Shown here: positions 16,935 to 57,524 of the stretch, piece after piece
How the letters are laid out: every line of letters begins with the position of its first letter
Position numbering within the stretch: the stretch's first letter is position 1
DNA from: Ruminococcus flavefaciens
GTDB taxonomy: Bacteria; Bacillota; Clostridia; Oscillospirales; Ruminococcaceae
Assembly (NCBI GenBank): GCA_023667045.1
Contig: JAMPAU010000001.1
Span: 825,176-889,175 of the forward strand
DNA: 64,000 nucleotides
Direction of reading: 5' to 3'
Position numbers and translations under genes: made by a program
Notes under the pieces: generated by a model
Told to the model about the DNA's origin: nothing
What the model saw: only the letters and a program-made list of their open reading frames with translations
Database searches by the model: none

Positions 16935-19445
16935 TCAGCCTGCAGCGTTGAGTGCGTCGCTTGTCATTGGGAATACATCAGTTGTGATTATTTCAAGGTC
17001 AACATACTGAATAGCGAGAGCATCGATAGGTGTGATGCCGTTTCCGTTGTCAACAACGTCGCCGTTCTTCTGACCCTGTTCAGAAATCTTGTATTCATTC
17101 GGGTTAGAAAGTGCCTGCATGATAAGAACAGCGTCAGCGAGAGTTACCTTACCATCGCAGTTAGTATCGCCCCAGAGAATATCGTCATCACTGCCTGATG
17201 TATCTTCTACATCTGTAAGAGGTGTAACATCAGGATAGAGGAGAGCCATAGAACCATATGACATGAGAGCGTCACCGTGGTGCCAGAATCTGTGTAACTT
17301 GTAGTAGTAGCCGTCTGTTTCGCCTGTATCATCATATACAGCCTTAGCAGCCTGATACATCGGGTCATTAGCATAGCTCTGACGGATAGATGAGAATGTA
17401 GCGCCGTTAGCGAGCTTAGAGCCGTCGGGCATTGTACCTGTGTAGCTTGTAGGAATGTAAACTGTTTCCTCGAAGATTCTCTTGAGAGAGCCGTTGTGGT
17501 CTTCAAATGCGATACCGATTTCATCACGACCGAGTTCCCACTGAGCAGAGAGAAGTCTGTTAGCGAGGTAGAGACCCTTTTCAGCAGTTGTACCGTCAGC
17601 CTTTTCTTCTAATGCACAAGAAGCGTCAACACCCTGAGCCTTAGCATAGTAGATAAGAGTATTACAGAGTGAAGAAATACAACCAACGTCGCCCATGCCG
17701 TAGCCTGTGATTGTGCAGTGGAGGCTCTGGTTGCCGTTAGGATTGTAAGTACCTGTCCATGTGTCAGGAACAACAGTGTAGTCTGTATCAGATTCACCCC
17801 AGTCGAGATTTGAAGGCATAGCGTAAGCCATTACTGTACCGTCTTCTGTTGTGTAATCAAACTGCATATTATCTTCAAACCATGCAACCCATCTCTCAAT
17901 AAGAGCTTCAAGAGCCTTTTCGAGTGAGAGACCGCCGAATGTCATATCCTTAACTTCAGCACTTACACCGTTAGTCTTTACATAGTAGTAAAGTTCTGTA
18001 AGTCTCTGCATAGGCCATACCTGGTTACCAATCCAGTGGTTAGAACCTGGGTCAGCGTATACAGGGTGAGGAATGTAAACCATGTTATAGAATGTCGGGT
18101 AGCCGTCCGGATACTTTACATAACGACCTCTGTAGGAGTTTGTACAACCACCAGCGAAAGGACCTTCAACTGACTGTAACCAGAGGTACATTTCAATCTG
18201 TCTCTTGAGAGATTCCTTGTAGTCTGCAGTAGCATTTGTGCCCTTCATACCTGCGTTAATCTTAGCATCGTCAATAAGAGCGTAAGCAGCGAGCGGGTTC
18301 TGATAGAACTGATGTGAGTGAGAAGCACCAATCTGCCAAGCCCAGTCATAGTTGCCGAGAGCTCCGCCCCATGATGTATACCAAGCCATGAGGTAGTGCT
18401 GACCGCCTTCGTCGCCGTATGTGCTGCCGTTGTTACCGCTTGCCATGATATTCTGACAACCGATAGCGTGATAATACTTATCAAACATATCGTTACGGCA
18501 CTGGTCACCCATTTTACCAGCGAGAGCTGAAACTTCATCAACGCCAACACCGAACTGGTTAGCAAAGTAAACAGCCTGAATAGCACGGTCTTCAGCGTCA
18601 GGAGCGTTAGTAAATGCGTACTGAGCAGCAACGCCAGAACCATTGAAGATACCCTTGATACCGTCCTGGTTACCGTACTTGAGTTCTTCAAGACACGGAT
18701 GCGGAACTGTCTCGAAACAGGATTCCTGCTCACCACGCTGGAATGTATTGATAAATGTGAATTTACCGTTGCCAGCACCAGCAGTAGCACCGCCGAAACC
18801 ATACCAGTCATCAACGTCTGCGAGCCAGTGCATGAGGTAGTAACCATTGTCACTGCCGTATGCTGACTTAAAGATGCTGTACATCGGGTTGATAGCATCA
18901 ACACCAACATTCTGTGTAGGATATTCATTAGGAGTATCCTTTTCTTCTGCTGTATCAGCCTTAAGTCTGTCCTGCTGCCAGATTGAGCTGTATCTTATAT
19001 CGCTTCTGCCTGCTGCATTTGACCAACCAGGAATGATAGCCTCCATAGTCTTCCATGCTTTAGCGAGGTCGCCTGTGCTGCCCTCAATCTGACCATTGTT
19101 AGCGAGAATATCGTGCATAGCAGCAACCCATGTGATGTAGGACATAGCCTCTGATGTTGTTTCATGACCATAGTCCGGAGCTTCAACACAGAGTGTTTCT
19201 ACTGAATGGTAAGGAATACCGAAAGAATCACCGCCGTTGTTCTGTGAGCTGAGATAGCCGTTTTCCACACCATTTGTGATAACATCATCATAGAGTGATG
19301 CGAACATCTTAGCATATGACTCATTAGCACCGTCTTTAGAAGCATATTCATTAGCTGCTGAAGACATAGCAGGCATGATAGCTGTAGCTGACATAACGGC
19401 AGAAAGGATACCGGCTGTTAAAGCCTTAGTCTTTTTGCTTATCAT
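16935..19445 (-). CDS. cel48: Family 48 exocellulase with C-terminal dockerin
   Basis: GH48 enzymes are processive reducing-end cellobiohydrolases and usually the most abundant catalytic subunit of cellulosomes. A signal peptide covers about 1-31 (basic start, hydrophobic core, ending MSSAA). The catalytic domain spans about 35-735; the family catalytic acid is probably the Glu in YGHETTSEA. After a short linker the type I dockerin (about 755-825) has two calcium loops: GDTNCDGKVTLADAVLIMQ and a degenerate NGNGITPIDALAIQ. The dockerin plugs the enzyme into a scaffoldin cohesin. No CBM is present. The gene is monocistronic, with a perfect promoter and a structured leader. Confidence 0.97.
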   Translation of the reverse strand: MISKKTKALTAGILSAVMSATAIMPAMSSAANEYASKDGANESYAKMFASLYDDVITNGVENGYLSSQNNGGDSFGIPYHSVETLCVEAPDYGHETTSEAMSYITWVAAMHDILANNGQIEGSTGDLAKAWKTMEAIIPGWSNAAGRSDIRYSSIWQQDRLKADTAEEKDTPNEYPTQNVGVDAINPMYSIFKSAYGSDNGYYLMHWLADVDDWYGFGGATAGAGNGKFTFINTFQRGEQESCFETVPHPCLEELKYGNQDGIKGIFNGSGVAAQYAFTNAPDAEDRAIQAVYFANQFGVGVDEVSALAGKMGDQCRNDMFDKYYHAIGCQNIMASGNNGSTYGDEGGQHYLMAWYTSWGGALGNYDWAWQIGASHSHQFYQNPLAAYALIDDAKINAGMKGTNATADYKESLKRQIEMYLWLQSVEGPFAGGCTNSYRGRYVKYPDGYPTFYNMVYIPHPVYADPGSNHWIGNQVWPMQRLTELYYYVKTNGVSAEVKDMTFGGLSLEKALEALIERWVAWFEDNMQFDYTTEDGTVMAYAMPSNLDWGESDTDYTVVPDTWTGTYNPNGNQSLHCTITGYGMGDVGCISSLCNTLIYYAKAQGVDASCALEEKADGTTAEKGLYLANRLLSAQWELGRDEIGIAFEDHNGSLKRIFEETVYIPTSYTGTMPDGSKLANGATFSSIRQSYANDPMYQAAKAVYDDTGETDGYYYKLHRFWHHGDALMSYGSMALLYPDVTPLTDVEDTSGSDDDILWGDTNCDGKVTLADAVLIMQALSNPNEYKISEQGQKNGDVVDNGNGITPIDALAIQYVDLEIITTDVFPMTSDALNAAG

Positions 19446-44209: not shown

Positions 44210-44863
44210 TTAATTTTTATTCATGACATGGGAAATAAACTCGTCCGGCAGAGTGAGACCGTATTTACTGACGTATTCTGCTGTGTTGCTTTCCCAGTAG
44301 TAATAGCCGTCTGAATACATAGTAGGACCAAACAAAGTGACTTCCGGCTTGAAAGGGTGCTGATAAACTCCTGCTCTGGTCAAGTATACATTGTCTGTTT
44401 TAAGATATTCAAGAACTTTATCGGGTACGGAATAGCCCTCTCTTACATGGTCGTAAATGCTGTCATGACCGGCGTGTATTTCCTTATATGGTGTTAAACA
44501 ACGACGGCTTTCCAGTTCTTTCAGTATTTCACGGCGTTAAATTTCATTGTCTGTTTTTACTTCATGGTATGGAACGTTCATAACAACAACATCACACATA
44601 CAAGCACCTGTTATTTCGGTTGCCGGATTTTCAGAACGTTTCCAGCCTAACTTACGCACCTTTTCGGAAACTTCCGCATAGTCTCCGGCGAGTTTCGGAT
44701 TTATCATTTTCACTTCACGCTCAATGAAAGAATCGTCCATCATTTCGATTTTTATAGTACTGCCCTTTGAAAGTCTCTCGCCCTCATCAAGCTTAACATT
44801 AAGATTTAAAACTTCTCCCTCATTGTCCTCATACGGACAACCGAAAACATCTGTTATTTTCAT
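44210..44863 (-). pseudogene. Hypothetical gene split by an in-frame TAA
   Basis: The 5' part (44537-44863) gives a 108-residue protein ending EVKTDNEI. After the TAA at 44537-44539 the same frame stays open for 107 more codons (REILKELESRRCLTPYKE ... LPDEFISHVMNKN). That second part has no ATG, GTG or TTG near its beginning, so it is most simply the tail of one protein of about 216 residues. The first codons overlap the ADP-ribosylglycohydrolase stop as ATGA. Family unknown; the acidic aromatic tail resembles immunity-type proteins. Confidence 0.6.
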
Positions 44864-45843
44864 AGTCTAAACAACTCCAAATTTTCAAATTTTTCAGCCA
44901 GTTCCTCCAGTTCGGACTTTTTACGCAAAACATCAAGCCATCTTTCCGGAATATCTTCATAGCCATACAGAATACCTGCAAGGCTACCCGTTATACCGCC
45001 GATAGTATCGGTATCATAGCCCATATTAATGGCTGTCAGCACAGCACTTTCATAATTATCCGTATTAAGAATGCTATATAATACAGACTCAAGAGTTGCT
45101 ACGACATAACCATTGTCTTCTGTAATATCCGTATCTTTGATATTAACGAAATCCGTATTTAGAATTTTCCTATGTGCGTGTACAGCATATTCTGAAAAAT
45201 ATTTACTGTAATCAATTTTCAGAATATTTTCAAACGCAAGTATCTTATTGTCAAAATGAATAATAGTTCTCATAAATTCCGTATAAATAAAACAGCTCAT
45301 CTTGCTTATATCGTGTGCGTGAGTAACTGAAGAAGCTTTACCTATAAAATCAGCAGTTTCCTTTTCCGGCATATCGGTTTTTATGATGTACAGCGAAAAC
45401 GGCAATATACGCATTAAAGAACCGTTGCCGTTATCATAAATTCCTGTACCTCCGCACTCAATAGCAAAACAGCCGTCTTTATAGCGTTCGAGAGATTCAG
45501 AAACACACCCACCAAGACCAAACGCCATATCAATTGAACAATATTGATTATGTTCCCACCAGTTCAGAAAATTCTGCATTATGTCATCATAGTCCACTCT
45601 GCCATTGTTTTTTACTATAGAATCCATTCCGGCAATAAGCATTGAAGTGTCATCGCTCCATGCACCAGAGGGAATTATTTCACTCCACTGGCTTTTGAAA
45701 GGAAGAAACCAGTCACAACCTATCATATCAAGCAGGCAAAGACGACGTACTTCGGCACGTGTAAGAAATTCCACAGGCACTCCCAGTGCGTCGCCGACTG
45801 CAAAACCTATCAGAGAATCTTTAGTAATATTTTTATTATTCAT
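44860..45843 (-). CDS. ADP-ribosylglycohydrolase family protein
   Basis: DraG-type hydrolase that removes ADP-ribose from targets. Magnesium-site motifs are GFAVGDALGVPVEF, WSDDTSMLIAG and GYDTDTIGGITGSLAG. Length 327 is normal. It is translationally coupled to the broken gene downstream. Such enzymes can act as immunity to ADP-ribosylating toxins, which would fit the neighbourhood, but no toxin is seen. Confidence 0.92.
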   Translation of the reverse strand: MNNKNITKDSLIGFAVGDALGVPVEFLTRAEVRRLCLLDMIGCDWFLPFKSQWSEIIPSGAWSDDTSMLIAGMDSIVKNNGRVDYDDIMQNFLNWWEHNQYCSIDMAFGLGGCVSESLERYKDGCFAIECGGTGIYDNGNGSLMRILPFSLYIIKTDMPEKETADFIGKASSVTHAHDISKMSCFIYTEFMRTIIHFDNKILAFENILKIDYSKYFSEYAVHAHRKILNTDFVNIKDTDITEDNGYVVATLESVLYSILNTDNYESAVLTAINMGYDTDTIGGITGSLAGILYGYEDIPERWLDVLRKKSELEELAEKFENLELFRL

Positions 45844-47458: not shown

Positions 47459-49726
47459 TTAAGTATTAATAGGTTGTTTTTCTTCCAGTGTCCACATCTG
47501 AATCTGCAATGCGTCTTTGGGTGTAACACCATCGCCAGTATTACAAACGTCCGCATTATATGCACCCTTTGTGGTAAGTTTATATTCGTTAGGATTTGAA
47601 AGCGACTGCATTATAAGCACTGCATCTGCCAGAGTAACTTTGCCGTCCTCATTTGCATCGCCGGAACGTTCTTCATCAAAAACACTGATATTTTCATCAT
47701 AGTTAATTGAATCAAAATCGTCTTCCTTAGCTCTTATAAGGCTTTCAATATGAGCCTGATATGCACTTCCGGAATCAGCGATTTCTTCGGTATGTTCCAT
47801 TATATAGAACTGTCCTGCTGTAAGTTCGTACAGAGTAGGTATATCATCATGGACTCCGTAATTTTGGTCAATGTTGTTCCATACTTCTACCGGAAGGATA
47901 CTATGTTCTGCTGTTATTCCTGAAGCTATATCGCTCCAGTAAATATTCATGTCGAAATAGTCGATGTAGTCAACTGCTCCGTCCATATTTACATCGGGAG
48001 CCGGACGAGTGCCGTTTTCAATTTCTGAACAGAATGTATCATAGAACGGATTGAATATATCCATATCAAGATAAATCTGACGGTCGTTTTCTATGTCTAC
48101 TGCCGGTCCTGTATTATCGCTTACTTGTATACCGATTAATTTAGCACCGTTTCTCATAGTCAGCGGTAAATTATAATATGCTTCATAATCCTCGATATTG
48201 TTCTTGCAGTATTCTAATGTGAAATACTCCGGCTTTATTTCTATATGATTTAAAATGTAAGACGCTACTTTATCCTCAAACCACATTCTGTTATAATGGT
48301 ACGGAACAAGGTGTTCTGACAAATAGTAGAAGAAAGTATTGCACCTTTCAATTTCTTCTTCTGTAAGAATTTCATAAAAATACTGCTGAGTTTCTTCACT
48401 GTTTGGTCGTCTGCAATATACTTCCATGCAGTAAACATCATCAATATCAAGCTCACCGTTTCCGTTAATATCAAAGTCTATCGTACCGTTCTGATAAAGT
48501 TCGTCCATCAGATAATATTCAGCCTGAAGGTACATCACATGATAGTACATACGCATAGGGAAACAATAAGCCGGTATCTCCTTATACTCTGTGAAATTAA
48601 TCAACTGTTCTTCAGATATAAGCGGTGCAATGTCGGGGTCGTAATATGCAGGGTCGAGGTATTCCATTCTGATGTTGCCGTCCACTATGAAGTAACGCAT
48701 AAGGCTTAACGTATCATCAAAGTTAACCTCTCCGTCTCTGTTATAGTCAGCTATGCTTTCGATACGCTGAATTATTTCAGGGTCTATATTCTCCTTGTAA
48801 GAATAATACTGTGAGCAGTAGGAATCGAGCAGGTAGCAGTCCATGATGTCAAATTCGCCGTTGCCGTTGATATCGACATCAAGTTCACCGCTTTCCATTT
48901 CAGCGAAGATTGTATCTTCACCAGACCAGTATCTGCTGGGATTAACGCTGAAATCCACAGTTGATGCATTGCTTATCACGGGTACAGCCGAAAGCGACAT
49001 TGCAAGTGCTGTCGCAAAAGATGAAAGTTTTTTCATTTTCAAACTTCTCTCATAATAAATATCTTGTGACGTAATTGTAGTTTCCGTCACGCTTGTGTAA
49101 GTTTGTGTTTCTGTGCTGATAGTTGTCTGTGTTGTTGTTTTAGCAGTTGTCTGCTTTATAGTGTTGGTGGTAGTTGCTTTTGACGTTTTAGCGGTTGTTT
49201 TCTCTGATGTACTGGTAGTTGTTTTTGACGTTTTAGTGGTTGTTTTCTCTGATGTACTGATAGTTGTTTGTGTAGTTTCCTGTAAATCTTCTGAATGTGT
49301 GTCTGTAGGAACTGAAGAAATTTCTTCAGAAGCTGTGGCAACGCTTATATTATTATCCGTAAATAAATCATCTGGTGCTGTTGTTGCTGAATAAAATACA
49401 GCCGGACTGCCTGTAGTATTAGAGGTTGAAACTGTTACAGACAGAGTGACATTGTTTTTTTCTGTTACAAAAGCAGTGGTCTGTGTAATAACCGGTATAT
49501 CATTTTCTGAAACATCTTGACTATCTATAACAGCAGGATAATCATAATCCATAGCATTTTTTAAAGAATGATTATTCCACAAGCCTAAACCAGCAATAAT
49601 AACAGCACACAATCCCGAAACTGCAAATGAAGTCCTTTTTATAAATTCCGTCCTTCTGTGTTTTTTTTCAAGAATAGCGTCACCTTTTTTGAATACTCTT
49701 TCTGCTATATCCTCATAGTTCTTCAT
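47459..49726 (-). CDS. Anti-sigma-like membrane protein fused to a multi-EF-hand dockerin protein
   Basis: The start at 49726 (MKNYEDIAERVFKKG) overlaps the sigma factor end by 14 bases and follows GAGAGGG by 8. Residues 1-31 are cytoplasmic and basic, a membrane helix spans about 32-50, and a Thr/Ser-rich stretch runs to about 225. At residue 231 a second N-terminus-like sequence appears: MKKLSSFATALAMSLSAV ending NAS, a textbook signal peptide, with GAGAAG 7 bases ahead of its ATG (49036). The rest holds several calcium-loop-like units (DINGNGEFDIMD, DYNRDGEVNFDD, DINGNGELDIDD, DVNMDGAVDYID). It ends in a dockerin with GDANEDGKVTLADAVLIMQ. Either one fused sensor or two proteins in one frame. 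Confidence 0.75.
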   Translation of the reverse strand: MKNYEDIAERVFKKGDAILEKKHRRTEFIKRTSFAVSGLCAVIIAGLGLWNNHSLKNAMDYDYPAVIDSQDVSENDIPVITQTTAFVTEKNNVTLSVTVSTSNTTGSPAVFYSATTAPDDLFTDNNISVATASEEISSVPTDTHSEDLQETTQTTISTSEKTTTKTSKTTTSTSEKTTAKTSKATTTNTIKQTTAKTTTQTTISTETQTYTSVTETTITSQDIYYERSLKMKKLSSFATALAMSLSAVPVISNASTVDFSVNPSRYWSGEDTIFAEMESGELDVDINGNGEFDIMDCYLLDSYCSQYYSYKENIDPEIIQRIESIADYNRDGEVNFDDTLSLMRYFIVDGNIRMEYLDPAYYDPDIAPLISEEQLINFTEYKEIPAYCFPMRMYYHVMYLQAEYYLMDELYQNGTIDFDINGNGELDIDDVYCMEVYCRRPNSEETQQYFYEILTEEEIERCNTFFYYLSEHLVPYHYNRMWFEDKVASYILNHIEIKPEYFTLEYCKNNIEDYEAYYNLPLTMRNGAKLIGIQVSDNTGPAVDIENDRQIYLDMDIFNPFYDTFCSEIENGTRPAPDVNMDGAVDYIDYFDMNIYWSDIASGITAEHSILPVEVWNNIDQNYGVHDDIPTLYELTAGQFYIMEHTEEIADSGSAYQAHIESLIRAKEDDFDSINYDENISVFDEERSGDANEDGKVTLADAVLIMQSLSNPNEYKLTTKGAYNADVCNTGDGVTPKDALQIQMWTLEEKQPINT

Positions 49727-50267
49727 AGCTGAAACCCTCTCTTTCAAGCTCTGATTTAAGAGATTTTTTTGCCCTGTAAAGCAAATAAGTAATCTGACGA
49801 TTAGTTTTATGCATAATCTTTGCGGTCTGTGAAGTGTCAAACTCCTCAAAGTATACCAGATAAAGCACCTGCTTGTAATCTGAATTAAGCTTTTCCATTG
49901 TCTTATGAAGTATAATTTTCTGTTCGTCTTTTATATAATTGCTTTCGATTTCTTCCTTGTCAGCAAGACTGTAAAAATCGTCAACCGGAACTGAAACATT
50001 TTTCGAGTTTTTTCTTATATAATCGACTGCCGTAAATCTTCCTATTGAGTAAAGCCAAGTTTTAAATGTGCTTTTTCCCGAAAATTTAGGTTTTTTTACA
50101 TAAAGCTTGATAAACACTTCTTCCGCAATTTCTTCAGCGATACAAATATTGTCAGTAAAACTTCCTATATACAAAACCATTCCATCTCTGTATTCACGGA
50201 TTATCTCAGTAAGAGCATTCTTATCACCTTCAAGAAAACGGCGGTAGCTACTTGCACCGTTATCCAT
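49713..50267 (-). CDS. ECF-type RNA polymerase sigma factor
   Basis: A 184-residue group IV sigma factor. Region 2 includes AEEVFIKLYVKKPKFSGK and FKTWLYSIGRFTAVDYIR; region 4 includes KLNSDYKQVLYLVYFEEF and an HTH ending TNRQITYLLYRAKKSL. It would direct polymerase to a specific regulon and is likely held by the membrane protein encoded next. Its own upstream region carries an ECF-like promoter, suggesting autoregulation. Confidence 0.92.
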   Translation of the reverse strand: MDNGASSYRRFLEGDKNALTEIIREYRDGMVLYIGSFTDNICIAEEIAEEVFIKLYVKKPKFSGKSTFKTWLYSIGRFTAVDYIRKNSKNVSVPVDDFYSLADKEEIESNYIKDEQKIILHKTMEKLNSDYKQVLYLVYFEEFDTSQTAKIMHKTNRQITYLLYRAKKSLKSELEREGFSYEEL

Positions 50268-50302
50268 GTATTTCCCCTTTCCGAAAATATATCTTCACTA
50301 CT

Positions 50303-50330
50303 TAGTCGTACAGCTATGGAAATTGTTGCA
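50303..50330 (-). promoter_or_regulatory. ECF-type promoter of the sigma factor operon
   Basis: On the minus strand TGCAAC (50325-50330) with the AAC core, followed by an AATTT tract, a 16-bp spacer and CGACTA (50303-50308). No sigma-A hexamers overlap it. The arrangement fits ECF promoters and autoregulation. Confidence 0.55.
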
Positions 50331-50425: not shown

Positions 50426-50905
50426 TTAAATGTCGTGTAAAAGGTCGTTTATAAACTCAGTAAAGCTTCCGGCGAGTTTATCTGAAACTTTAATAATGTT
50501 ATCATAGTTAAAATCAAGGCTTTTGTCTTTGTCATAGTCGTAAATCTCGGTCTCATCGCCGAGCAGTTCATGCGAACACTGATAAACCGGTAAATTATCA
50601 TCATTCAAGTCAATGCATATGCTGTCGCCGTCAAAAGTCGAGGCAAACGTAAAAAATCCGAACGGAAATATATTAGCTCCGGCAACGTAATTGATGTTCT
50701 CGTCATACAGACGATTAATGCCATAGAATACAAAATCAGAAAATTCAAACTCACCGTCCGGCATAGCAGTGGTGTATACTTCCGTGATAATATCCGGCAG
50801 TCTGTCAGAAGAAATTTCTTTAAATTTAAGTAATTCGTCGTCATTCGGCTTTATAAAAGATATGCCGTCAATTTTTTTCAGAAAATTTAAAAATATGTTT
50901 TCCAT
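50426..50905 (-). CDS. SUKH/SMI1-KNR4 family protein, likely immunity protein
   Basis: A 159-residue acidic protein with the SUKH fold pattern: an N-terminal helix, ANIFPFGFFTFAS, DGDSICIDLND and a C-terminal SFTEFINDLL. SUKH proteins neutralise a broad range of contact-dependent toxins. GGAGC precedes the ATG. No toxin gene adjoins it, so it may be an orphan immunity gene. Confidence 0.8.
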   Translation of the reverse strand: MENIFLNFLKKIDGISFIKPNDDELLKFKEISSDRLPDIITEVYTTAMPDGEFEFSDFVFYGINRLYDENINYVAGANIFPFGFFTFASTFDGDSICIDLNDDNLPVYQCSHELLGDETEIYDYDKDKSLDFNYDNIIKVSDKLAGSFTEFINDLLHDI

Positions 50906-54252: not shown

Positions 54253-55932
54253 TCAGTCTTGTTTTACCATACAGGACTTCTTACAGAATGCTACCCCGTA
54301 CTTAATGATTTTCTGATAGCCGTCGTTTATAAGTTCCGTCTCATAGCGGTACGCCTCAATCTGCTTTAAAGCCTCGTCGCACCAGTATTCAAGTTTGGTG
54401 AACTCCTTTGTCGCCTTGATTTCAATAATAACCGCTAACTTATGTCTGCGACGTTCCAAAAGCATTAAATTAGGTCGTCCGTCTCCGCTTTCACGGTTGG
54501 ATTTGAGCGTATACCCCTTGAACCCCGACAATAAACCAGTTAAAAAGCCGTGATAATAGTTCTCCTGCTCATCGTGGAAACTGATTGTCTCGTCCAGCCA
54601 GTCGCAAATTGTATCTTCAATAGTTTCAATGTCTTCTGAAATAAGGGCGTTGAATAAGTCACTGCGTGAATCTGCTACCGTCTTTTCCTTGAACCACTGC
54701 ATTATAGTTCTTTGATATATACTTTTCACTTCAACGTTAGGTATAACCATAGTAAGATATATAATACTGTCACGTAATTCTGTCTTAATCTGTTTGAGAT
54801 ACCCCGTAAACAATAAGAAACTCCATATATGTTCGCTGTTCACGTCAATATCTGAATAAACAGTATCTTCACATATAGGTACAGTTATACTACCGCCGTT
54901 CATAAGCTCCTCGACCATTTCACGTGTTTCCTCGCCCGATTCCCTTATCAGCTTATAAATGATACTGTTGGAGCTGGTGTTGCTCCAGTACGGCTGACAT
55001 GAAATCTGCTCACCTTCATTTACAGAAGTAATATACTGCAATACGCTCCACGGATTATAAATACCTGTATTTCCAAATAAATAGCCGTCATACCACAAAC
55101 GCATTTCAGGTATCTTGTCTTCTAACCCATACTCTTTTGCAAGTCTGCATATTTCATTTTCAGTGAATCCAAAGTATTCAGCAAATTCACTATTCATTAC
55201 AGAGTATACCTTGAGATTATTAAGTCCCGTGAATATACTTTCTTTTGATATACGCAGACAACCTGTCAGTATAGCAAATTCAAGGAAATTATTTGTCTTT
55301 AATGCACTTTCAAACGCTGAACGGAGCAGGTTTATCATCTTGTCATAAAAGCCATTGAAATAGGCGTTTTCAAGCGGTACGTCATATTCATCAATCAGAA
55401 TGATTACATTTTTATTGTATGCTTTGCAAAGGCACTTCGACAAAAAGCCGATTGCCTTACTATAAGCTGAATAATCTGCATTAATGTCAAGGAAAGACTT
55501 ATATCTTTCTTTTTCCTCATTGTCAAGCACATTTGCATTGTAAACTATAGCCTTATGCCTTGAAAACTCATCTTTTATAATGTCCTTATACGTTGAATAA
55601 GCTGTATCAAAATCGGGTTGTTTCATACCTTTAAGTGAGAGACTTATAACAGGATATTGTCCCATATGTTCAAGGCACTGCTCACCTGCTCCCATAATAT
55701 TAAGTCCCTCAAAAAGATATGAGTTATTATTGTCGGTCTTTTCAAAAAACCTCTGTAACATACTCATATTCAAGGTCTTGCCGAATCTTCTCGGACGTGT
55801 AAACAGTGTAACCTTTGAACCACTGTCAAGTATATCTCTTATCATAAGTGTCTTATCAACAAAATAGTAGTTCTTTCTGATAATTTCTGAAAAATCCTCT
55901 ATGCCTATCGGTATTTTCTTACACTCTGCCAT
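54253..55932 (-). CDS. AAA-ATPase-like protein with PD-(D/E)XK nuclease domain (DUF1703 type)
   Basis: A 559-residue protein beginning KKIPIGIEDFSEIIRKNYYF, the start of the AAA-ATPase_like family. The modified P-loop is FTRPRRFGKTLNMSM and Walker B is VIILIDEYDVPLENA. The C-terminal nuclease-like domain shows GDGRPNLMLL and VIIEIKATKEF (D...ExK). The ATG at 55932 follows GGAGG by 8 bases. The family is multi-copy in gut anaerobes and its function is unknown. It forms the left edge of the region that cuts spoIIID. Confidence 0.9.
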   Translation of the reverse strand: MAECKKIPIGIEDFSEIIRKNYYFVDKTLMIRDILDSGSKVTLFTRPRRFGKTLNMSMLQRFFEKTDNNNSYLFEGLNIMGAGEQCLEHMGQYPVISLSLKGMKQPDFDTAYSTYKDIIKDEFSRHKAIVYNANVLDNEEKERYKSFLDINADYSAYSKAIGFLSKCLCKAYNKNVIILIDEYDVPLENAYFNGFYDKMINLLRSAFESALKTNNFLEFAILTGCLRISKESIFTGLNNLKVYSVMNSEFAEYFGFTENEICRLAKEYGLEDKIPEMRLWYDGYLFGNTGIYNPWSVLQYITSVNEGEQISCQPYWSNTSSNSIIYKLIRESGEETREMVEELMNGGSITVPICEDTVYSDIDVNSEHIWSFLLFTGYLKQIKTELRDSIIYLTMVIPNVEVKSIYQRTIMQWFKEKTVADSRSDLFNALISEDIETIEDTICDWLDETISFHDEQENYYHGFLTGLLSGFKGYTLKSNRESGDGRPNLMLLERRRHKLAVIIEIKATKEFTKLEYWCDEALKQIEAYRYETELINDGYQKIIKYGVAFCKKSCMVKQD

Positions 55933-56005
55933 TATAAACACCTCCATCAATCCATTGATTATATTATACCACAAATACCGCCGAAAATCAATACATACTG
56001 CAAAA

Positions 56006-56036
56006 AACGGCAGATAAAAAAATCCGCCGTCTTTCG
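56006..56036 (-). terminator. Terminator of the serine recombinase gene
   Basis: Stem ACGGC/GCCGT with adjoining pairs; on the minus strand it is followed by T6. It begins just after the recombinase stop. Confidence 0.55.
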
Positions 56037-57524
56037 TTAATAATTCAACTCTATGTTTACATTGCCGTTTTCGTCTGTAGTGATACCTTTTATTAAAGTC
56101 CTGAGTTCTGCATTAGTCATATTGGCTACTGACGAGTATTTTTCAAAATTCTCCGAAAGCATACGATAAAGCTGATAAAGTTTTTTCTCCATATTCTCCG
56201 GAGTTTCTATAAAATCAAGTTTAAGTTTGATTTCGCAAATCTGCCTGTCAATATCTGCTACTTTCTTTTGCATTTCTTCAAATTTAATAATATTATGCAT
56301 ATACAAATTTATATTCTTCTGTCTTAAATCTTGCAGGTTGTCAAGCTGTTTTCTGAGTTCAATCTCTGGACTTTCAGGCTGTCTTTTCTGATACTGGTTC
56401 ATAATACTTTCAACAAATTTCTTCCTGTCCTTAATCAGTGACTGAAAATAATTGTCAATGTTTTCAATCAGTTCATCTTCCATAATCATAGTCTTATTTT
56501 TACAATATTCCGCACCGTAACGGTTACGACCACTGCAACCCCAGTACGTCCTTGTATAGTCTTTACGCTTGTTCTGTATACGTCTGAACGAATATCCACA
56601 ACACTCACAAGTAATAAGCGTACTGAATAAATGCTTGTTACTGCGTTTCTTGTGAATAGTCTTCTCAAGTCCAGTATTGTTGGAATTGTTGATAGTCTGT
56701 GCCTTTTCCCATAATTCCAAAGGTATTATACGCAGACTGGAATTTTCAACTTCAATCCATTCAGATTTATCTCTTTTTATGCGTTTTTTGGTAATAAAGT
56801 TTTCAACCTCTGTCTTGCCGTTAATCACATACCCTGCATAAATCTTATTTTTCAGTGTTCTGCTGACTGCCGTTGTACTCCACTGACGACCTTTCGCACT
56901 TTTAATACCCCTTTCATTCAGAATTTTTGCAATCTTGTGAGTACCATTTCCTCCATTAACATACAAGTCAAAAATTTCCTTTACAACTTTCGCCTGTTCT
57001 TCGTCTATCGCCATATTGTATTTCTCACCATTTATCTTGATATAACCATAACAGGAATTGGGAACAGTACCCTTTGAAGCGTTTACTCTCTTGCTGAACT
57101 TGATACGCTTTGACAGATTGGCTGATTCTTGCTGAGAAATCATTCCGCCTAAAATCAACATAAGCTCATCGCCATCAATCGTATTCATATCCATAGTAAT
57201 AAACTTAACATTAATTTTATAGCCTGTCAGTTGACGTATACATTTTATAAGGTCAAGAACGTTACGTGAAAACCTTGAAATATCTTTTACAAGCACACAT
57301 TTAAATATACCTTTCTCGCTGTCCTTTATCATCTGACTAAAACCAGGTCTTTTTTCGATTGATGTACCTGTTATGCCCTGGTCTGAATATATATGAACCA
57401 AATTTAAATTGTTTTTTTCTGCATAGTCAACAAAAAACTTTTTTTGTGTCTCAAATGACCCATTCTGACTTTCTTTATTAGTAGACACACGGCAGTATGC
57501 TACAACATTCTCCATATTATCCAT
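56037..57524 (-). CDS. Large serine recombinase
   Basis: Site-specific recombinase of the phage/transposon integrase type. The N-terminal catalytic domain has the Ser in YCRVSTNKESQNG and Arg residues in VKDISRFSRNVLD. A recombinase domain follows (GTHKIAKILNERGIKS), then a zinc ribbon (CECCGYSFRRIQ and a later YWGCSGRNRYGAEYC) and a coiled-coil motif. Length 495 fits. AGGAGG precedes the ATG by 8 bases. It is the best candidate for the integrase that cut spoIIID, 1.8 kb from the break. Confidence 0.95.
   Translation of the reverse strand: MDNMENVVAYCRVSTNKESQNGSFETQKKFFVDYAEKNNLNLVHIYSDQGITGTSIEKRPGFSQMIKDSEKGIFKCVLVKDISRFSRNVLDLIKCIRQLTGYKINVKFITMDMNTIDGDELMLILGGMISQQESANLSKRIKFSKRVNASKGTVPNSCYGYIKINGEKYNMAIDEEQAKVVKEIFDLYVNGGNGTHKIAKILNERGIKSAKGRQWSTTAVSRTLKNKIYAGYVINGKTEVENFITKKRIKRDKSEWIEVENSSLRIIPLELWEKAQTINNSNNTGLEKTIHKKRSNKHLFSTLITCECCGYSFRRIQNKRKDYTRTYWGCSGRNRYGAEYCKNKTMIMEDELIENIDNYFQSLIKDRKKFVESIMNQYQKRQPESPEIELRKQLDNLQDLRQKNINLYMHNIIKFEEMQKKVADIDRQICEIKLKLDFIETPENMEKKLYQLYRMLSENFEKYSSVANMTNAELRTLIKGITTDENGNVNIELNY

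Follow-up and report, generated by a model that had tools for sequence, protein, structure and literature searches.

The locus at positions 47459 to 50330 of a 64,000-nucleotide stretch of Ruminococcus flavefaciens DNA (assembly GCA_023667045.1, contig JAMPAU010000001.1, positions 825,176 to 889,175; the whole stretch is called the window below) raises the question of how many proteins a single reading frame can supply to a regulatory operon. Here, the gene of an extracytoplasmic function (ECF) sigma factor is followed by an open reading frame (ORF), termed ORF2, whose predicted product runs from a presumed anti-sigma end to a dockerin. A first-pass annotation of this DNA described ORF2 as one membrane sensor that could use its dockerin to read the occupancy of scaffoldins or cohesins. 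Its account of the anatomy was found to be correct: ORF2 overlaps the sigma gene by 14 nt, and from a basic end its product passes through one helix and a stalk rich in Thr to EF-hand loops and, last, a dockerin. The dockerin is genuine and matches those of R. flavefaciens group I (5m2o_B 6.8e-15, 5m2s 2.2e-11 among solved dockerins). What it overlooked is that ORF2 encloses what reads as a complete nested gene for a secreted protein, with its own in-frame ATG and signal peptide (Table 1). The explanation favoured here, at slightly better than an even chance, is a dual-product gene that would yield a membrane-anchored anti-sigma/dockerin fusion together with a secreted dockerin twin, within an autoregulated ECF operon.

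The nested start was followed across the genus in 73 loci, taken from the window, 80 fetched regions (many of them picked for long frames) and 40 matches to the C-terminal part, the matches to the family being more numerous than these. An ATG with a hydrophobic segment is present in all 73 by selection; in the first set, the nested ATG was chosen by the best Shine-Dalgarno sequence among ATGs with such a segment, which introduces a mild bias, and nearly all loci showed a single candidate. A Shine-Dalgarno sequence of -5.8 kcal/mol or lower stands before 67 of the 73 nested ATGs. For ORFs of the first N-terminal type, values of -5.9 or lower were obtained for 49 of 52 nested ATGs versus 43 of 778 other in-frame ATGs, the loci being related members, so that p-values overstate their independence. 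At position -4, AGG accounts for 47 of 48 arginine codons (AGG makes up 18% of arginine codons over whole ORFs), and entropy falls to 0.75 bit over positions -15 to -9, compared with 1.73 upstream, in 50 non-redundant loci. Because the residues encoded across the Shine-Dalgarno sequence differ by group (ERS, RRV, EGS, EGR, EEG, EGG and EEV) while the codon bias and low entropy persist, selection appears to act on the nucleotides themselves. The signal peptide behind the ATG carries a loose AxA-like pattern, judged by pattern only, in 70 of 71 loci. RNA structure as a gate of the nested start was considered and rejected, as the five loci folded gave inconsistent z values (-1.9, -0.8, -2.2, 0.0 and 0.4).

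The second half of the argument concerns the frame. Beside an anti-sigma part, the module continues the same frame at 71 loci and was seen unfused at two (L065 and L130). Over the last 25 codons before the nested ATG, these 71 loci contain no in-frame stop in 1775 codons, versus 154 and 85 in the other frames; this zero stems partly from locus choice, long frames having been preferred, and L129 and L130 were excluded from the count. In view of this preference, a control of 40 shorter-frame loci was drawn, and among its 44 first-type ORFs the module was found neither in the same ORF (0) nor as a separate gene behind it (0). When 26 pairs of relatives were pooled, the ratio of nonsynonymous to synonymous substitution rates (dN/dS) came to 0.55 in the stalk and 0.53 in its last 24 codons, up to the Shine-Dalgarno sequence, and to 0.25 and 0.15 in the signal peptide and the dockerin, respectively. 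That the frame of the fusion has so rarely been lost argues for a second, anchored use of the module. The nested module is not tied to one regulator, being carried by the N-terminal type of the window in 58 loci and by two others in 10 and 3; in these other two types, the adjacent upstream ORF reads as a sigma factor in 12 of 13 loci, and the four sigma ORFs of other types that were tested all have sigma regions 2 and 4. A FastTree phylogeny of the C-terminal part with 94 rows shows the types intermingled, five labels requiring at least 12 changes; its many long branches make it only a rough guide. An assembly or sequencing error as the origin of the fusion was rejected, since the fusion recurs in many genomes.

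The sigma gene and its promoter hold up as first annotated. The sigma ORF matches the Pfam families of sigma-70 regions 2 and 4 (Sigma70_r2 6.8e-11, Sigma70_r4_2 2.9e-9) and the NCBIfam sigma70-ECF superfamily model (86.1 bits, cut-off 42.9), and the RsgI N-terminal family is absent among the matches of 37 N-termini at E <= 1. Within the window, the promoter motif was matched once with at most one mismatch, at 50303-50330 on the minus strand; shuffled windows gave a chance mean of 0.19, with a match in 17 of 100 shuffles. Of 82 sigma upstream regions, 57 were usable for comparison, and both hexamers are exact in 10 of them (shuffled mean 0.3), namely in the window and its nine closest relatives among the 57. 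Conservation of the promoter among close relatives exceeds chance. The remaining subgroups carry similar motifs of their own, as judged by eye. TGCAAC-N16-CGACTA is a candidate promoter, which the sigma factor of the window would recognise. Of 82 first-type ORFs, 78 begin within the end of the sigma gene, the two sharing 8-17 nt; the sigma query of the locus survey held both window proteins, so that sigma scores are mixed and overlap values unaffected. At G117, L097, L191 and L192, about 50 kb of a single contig separates the sigma gene from the anti-sigma/dockerin ORF. Judged by eye, a recombinase-like ORF comes right after the sigma gene and transfer-like genes adjoin the other ORF, so that the overlap may have been the insertion site of a mobile element.

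The first-pass annotation had suggested scanning for the same motif near cellulosome genes, and such a site exists before a cohesin-domain gene, in only two of 13 genomes. An extended motif was searched in the window genome and 12 relatives, giving 14 sites with at most one mismatch, 13 of them exact, and none in two of the 13 genomes; the backward motif gave two sites over the same genomes. Eleven sites precede sigma genes and two precede one orthologous cohesin-domain gene, about 240 nt ahead of it, in the window genome (G000:C24 1134399-1135346) and in G026. A third exact promoter match (G000:C24:1400960) seems by eye to lie inside a gene, and six further sites have one mismatch. The product of the orthologous gene matches the cohesin family PF00963 (6.9e-11) and begins with a hydrophobic leader that resembles a lipoprotein signal. 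As seen by eye, the gene also has housekeeping-like -35 and -10 elements closer to its start. In G026, the promoter was probably copied to this location, since a piece of the 5' end of the sigma gene follows the site. The presence of the same promoter before a cohesin-domain gene lends some support to a link with cohesins. A cohesin-domain protein (L173:1900-2844, plus strand; L190:2255-3247, minus strand) resembles a circularly permuted cohesin: its residues 157-237 align with the C-terminal half (56-139) of the cohesin profile, and behind them residues 252-306 match the N-terminal parts of solved cohesins. The cohesin-domain protein of G026 shows the same permuted order by eye.

Taken together, the favoured dual-product explanation would work as follows. 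In a cellulosomal Ruminococcus-like bacterium with an autoregulated ECF sigma/anti-sigma operon, the anti-sigma gene would have been joined in frame to a secreted EF-hand/dockerin gene that retained its Shine-Dalgarno sequence, ATG and signal peptide. One mRNA would then give two products: an anchored fusion, with its sigma-binding end in the cytoplasm and the helix, stalk and EF-hand/dockerin part leading outside, and a dockerin twin, which is secreted and becomes part of the cellulosome. The two forms would compete for cohesins, so that the anchored copy, by sensing cohesins that the twin leaves free, reports cohesin occupancy; its engagement would trigger proteolysis and free the sigma factor, which would transcribe the operon and, in the window genome, the cohesin-domain gene. 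A more tentative extension is a self-referencing sensor, in which a tethered dockerin receptor and its secreted twin fill the same cohesins, and the cell gauges free sites by competition with its own product and tunes cellulosome supply, a cohesin protein under the same promoter included; the ratio of the forms would be set by the internal Shine-Dalgarno sequence, which varies between relatives. The cohesin-sensing idea of the earlier annotation may hold.

Several observations weigh against the dual-product explanation. The main physical difficulty is topological: the full-length chain would contain the signal peptide as a second hydrophobic segment, wrongly oriented, and this could place the dockerin inside or hinder insertion. 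The window copy itself has a weakened inner start, reading GAG AGA AGT in place of the GAA AGG AGT of close relatives such as L078, two synonymous changes that keep the residues E-R-S. Its Shine-Dalgarno value is -2.9 kcal/mol, or -5.4 with a longer anti-Shine-Dalgarno sequence, a value that 12% of the other internal ATGs equal or surpass, and weak Shine-Dalgarno sequences also occur in five further loci. Because of the two changes, the inner start of the window is uncertain and its working is not claimed here; the fusion may be the dominant form in the window and these five loci. In L065, a stop separates the EF-hand-bearing anti-sigma ORF from a secreted dockerin gene, and in L130 (G034:C1:3284600-3289000) the stalk and the dockerin ORF lie in different frames, a broken frame that is either a frameshift or a sequence error. 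A separate dockerin ORF follows within 205 nt in 6 of 31 non-nested first-type ORFs, and another dockerin-bearing ORF follows within 199 nt in 8 of 44 ORFs of the control set, four of these with weak profile scores.

The best-surviving alternative, which we regard as doubtful, holds that there are two separate parts, an anti-sigma protein with a stalk and a C-terminal half made solely as a secreted dockerin protein, the in-frame join being a by-product of lost stops. It draws on the awkward topology of the fusion, on the separate Shine-Dalgarno sequence and signal peptide of the nested half and on the distribution of the dockerin. All 52 first-type ORFs that have the nested start carry the terminal dockerin and none of the 31 that lack it does, by a profile built from 36 of the nested members themselves; Pfam dockerin at E <= 0.01 gives 31 of 36 nested ORFs versus 1 of 30 others. 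In the set of 40 loci retrieved through the C-terminal part alone, the module stands alone as a secreted homologue in 19, is in frame in 19, meets a contig end in one (L129) and is out of frame in one (L130). By profile, a sigma-like ORF accompanies 20 of the 21 loci that are not stand-alone, the exception being the truncated L129, versus 0 of the 19 stand-alone loci. The dockerin thus appears to go with the secreted product, fused or not, and the secreted protein is therefore argued to be the main dockerin user. Unfused operons with other dockerin genes, two of them GH9, also fit this alternative. Against it stand the module's being in frame with an anti-sigma part at 71 loci and unfused at two, the absence of the module as a separate gene behind the 44 control ORFs, the coding constraint that reaches the Shine-Dalgarno sequence, and the window itself, which retains the residues E-R-S though its Shine-Dalgarno sequence is lost. 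A product made separately from the sensor, which the first-pass annotation had named as contrary to its proposal if it were the only source of the dockerin, is likely in relatives, while the kept frame and the coding constraint argue for the fusion too.

As to the unfused operons themselves, a separate GH9 gene with a dockerin has its ORF start 118 and 203 nt behind the sigma/anti-sigma pair in L067 and L037, respectively. In L200, L218, L224 and L221, a first-type anti-sigma ORF is followed 10-132 nt behind by a separate dockerin ORF with profile scores of 75-92.

The original proposal of a single RsgI-like sensor, whose dockerin reads cohesins and whose signal peptide and Shine-Dalgarno sequence are relics with no twin, is distinctly improbable. 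That an ECF sigma gene overlaps the gene of a membrane partner with a genuine dockerin is supported; that the dockerin belongs to the sensor as such is called into question by its tracking of the nested start and by the stand-alone secreted loci. The synonymous weakening of the Shine-Dalgarno sequence in the window, with its residues kept, fits a relic, as does L099, where the EF-hand part sits straight on the stalk with no signal peptide. However, L099 has no dockerin either, the Shine-Dalgarno sequence is conserved as nucleotides at 67 of 73 loci, and the signal peptide has a dN/dS of 0.25 and the loose AxA-like pattern at 70 of 71 loci. L065 was rejected as a further clean dockerin-less EF-hand fusion, a separate secreted dockerin gene following in the same frame, which leaves only L099. 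Finally, it is very improbable that the ORF2 N-terminus belongs to some other membrane protein co-transcribed with the sigma gene: no curated anti-sigma family was found above cut-off among 37 N-termini (PF13800, Sigma_reg_N, weakly matches three of them, best 0.013), but the conserved overlap of 8-17 nt and the similar layout in two further sigma lineages speak for an anti-sigma role, in which the N-terminus would bind the sigma factor.

The family is widespread within the genus, the N-terminal profile matching at least 97 of 125 genomes (E <= 0.001) and the C-terminal profile at least 65 of 125 (E <= 1e-8). In a wider search of 295 genomes from the order, the C-terminal profile at E <= 1e-15 matched only the genome that holds the window, at least one other genome of that set being of the same genus; a search of phage records gave no match. 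The host looks cellulosomal from its gene content, with 12 cohesin and 96 dockerin matches (dockerin at E <= 0.01, some below cut-off), and because the genome holds cohesin matches, the window dockerin has possible partners. Thr makes up 29% of the 170-aa stalk, and by pattern, EF-type loops of 12 residues begin at five points, residues 285, 327, 419, 578 and 690. Among the matches of the outer part of the ORF2 family, only dockerin, EF-hand and one DUF appear, with no carbohydrate-binding or hydrolase module.

Table 1. Features of the sigma/ORF2 locus in window coordinates.
Feature	Position	Strand	Basis or remark
Candidate ECF-type promoter TGCAAC-N16-CGACTA, upstream of sigma	50303..50330	-	motif search, relatives compared
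ECF sigma factor, 184 aa	49713..50267	-	Pfam and NCBIfam matches
Sigma/ORF2 overlap, 14 nt	49713..49726	-	
ORF2, predicted full-length anti-sigma/dockerin fusion, 755 aa + stop	47459..49726	-	start ATG 49726
Basic N-terminus, residues 1-31	49634..49726	-	presumed cytoplasmic and sigma-binding
Membrane helix 1, residues 32-50	49577..49633	-	hydropathy
Thr-rich stalk, residues 56-225	49052..49561	-	composition
Shine-Dalgarno zone of nested start, weakened in window	49043..49051	-	
Internal ATG in frame with ORF2 (residue 231), predicted nested start	49034..49036	-	
Signal peptide of nested protein, residues 231-255, MKKLSSFATALAMSLSAVPVISNAS	48962..49036	-	by pattern
Nested secreted EF-hand/dockerin protein, 525 aa + stop	47459..49036	-	predicted
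EF-hand loop DINGNGEFDIMD	48839..48874	-	pattern
EF-hand loop DYNRDGEVNFDD	48713..48748	-	pattern
EF-hand loop DINGNGELDIDD	48437..48472	-	pattern
EF-hand loop DVNMDGAVDYID	47960..47995	-	pattern
C-terminal type I dockerin	47477..47665	-	PF00404 and solved dockerins; first loop 47624-47659

Elsewhere in the window, about 30 kb from the locus, the minus strand encodes a protein of family GH48 (16938-19445, 4e-174) whose C-terminus weakly matches a dockerin. Nearer to the locus, on the same strand, are an ADP-ribosylglycohydrolase (44863-45843) and a SUKH-like protein below the SMI1_KNR4 cut-off (50429-50905), and an AAA-ATPase-like/PDDEXK_9 protein (54256-57524, minus strand) adjoins a resolvase-type recombinase.

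The group I dockerins of R. flavefaciens are known from secreted enzymes and scaffoldins. The window dockerin matches those of PDB entries 5m2o and 5m2s, whereas here its frame continues from a membrane regulator. The SigI/RsgI pairs of Clostridium (Acetivibrio) thermocellum, as described in excerpts of PMC12203970 and PMC11557425, likewise join a sigma factor to a membrane-spanning partner with an outer module and are tied to cellulosome gene control; they differ from the present system, which has an ECF sigma factor, no RsgI N-terminal family among the matches, an EF-hand/dockerin part instead of a carbohydrate-binding module (CBM), and a nested secreted start. According to the same excerpts of PMC11557425, a recent survey confines RsgI suites to Acetivibrio-type cellulosomes, and in those of PMC12484212, RsgI is the only such regulator mentioned. 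Because that survey places RsgI suites only in Acetivibrio-type systems, the control of Ruminococcus cellulosomes appears open, and the sigma/ORF2 family is a concrete candidate for it.

RsiP of Bacillus thuringiensis (PMC8844934, in part) offers a second parallel, as a membrane partner that holds a signal-peptidase site and belongs to an ECF sigma/anti-sigma pair activated through signal peptidase; here, the site lies within the nested signal peptide, far from helix 1, and cleavage in the fusion is hypothetical. A figure legend in PMC3672088 mentions an extracellular R. flavefaciens protein in which only a dockerin was detected, and no description of an arrangement like the present one was found in the open-access literature searched. 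A regulator and a cellulosome part may share one reading frame; if this is true, annotation that assigns one protein to each frame would miss half of such genes. In this respect, the locus resembles in-frame nested bacterial genes with alternative N-terminal proteoforms, which likewise give two lengths from one frame, but here the short form would be secreted rather than membrane-bound, and the pair lies within a sigma factor circuit.

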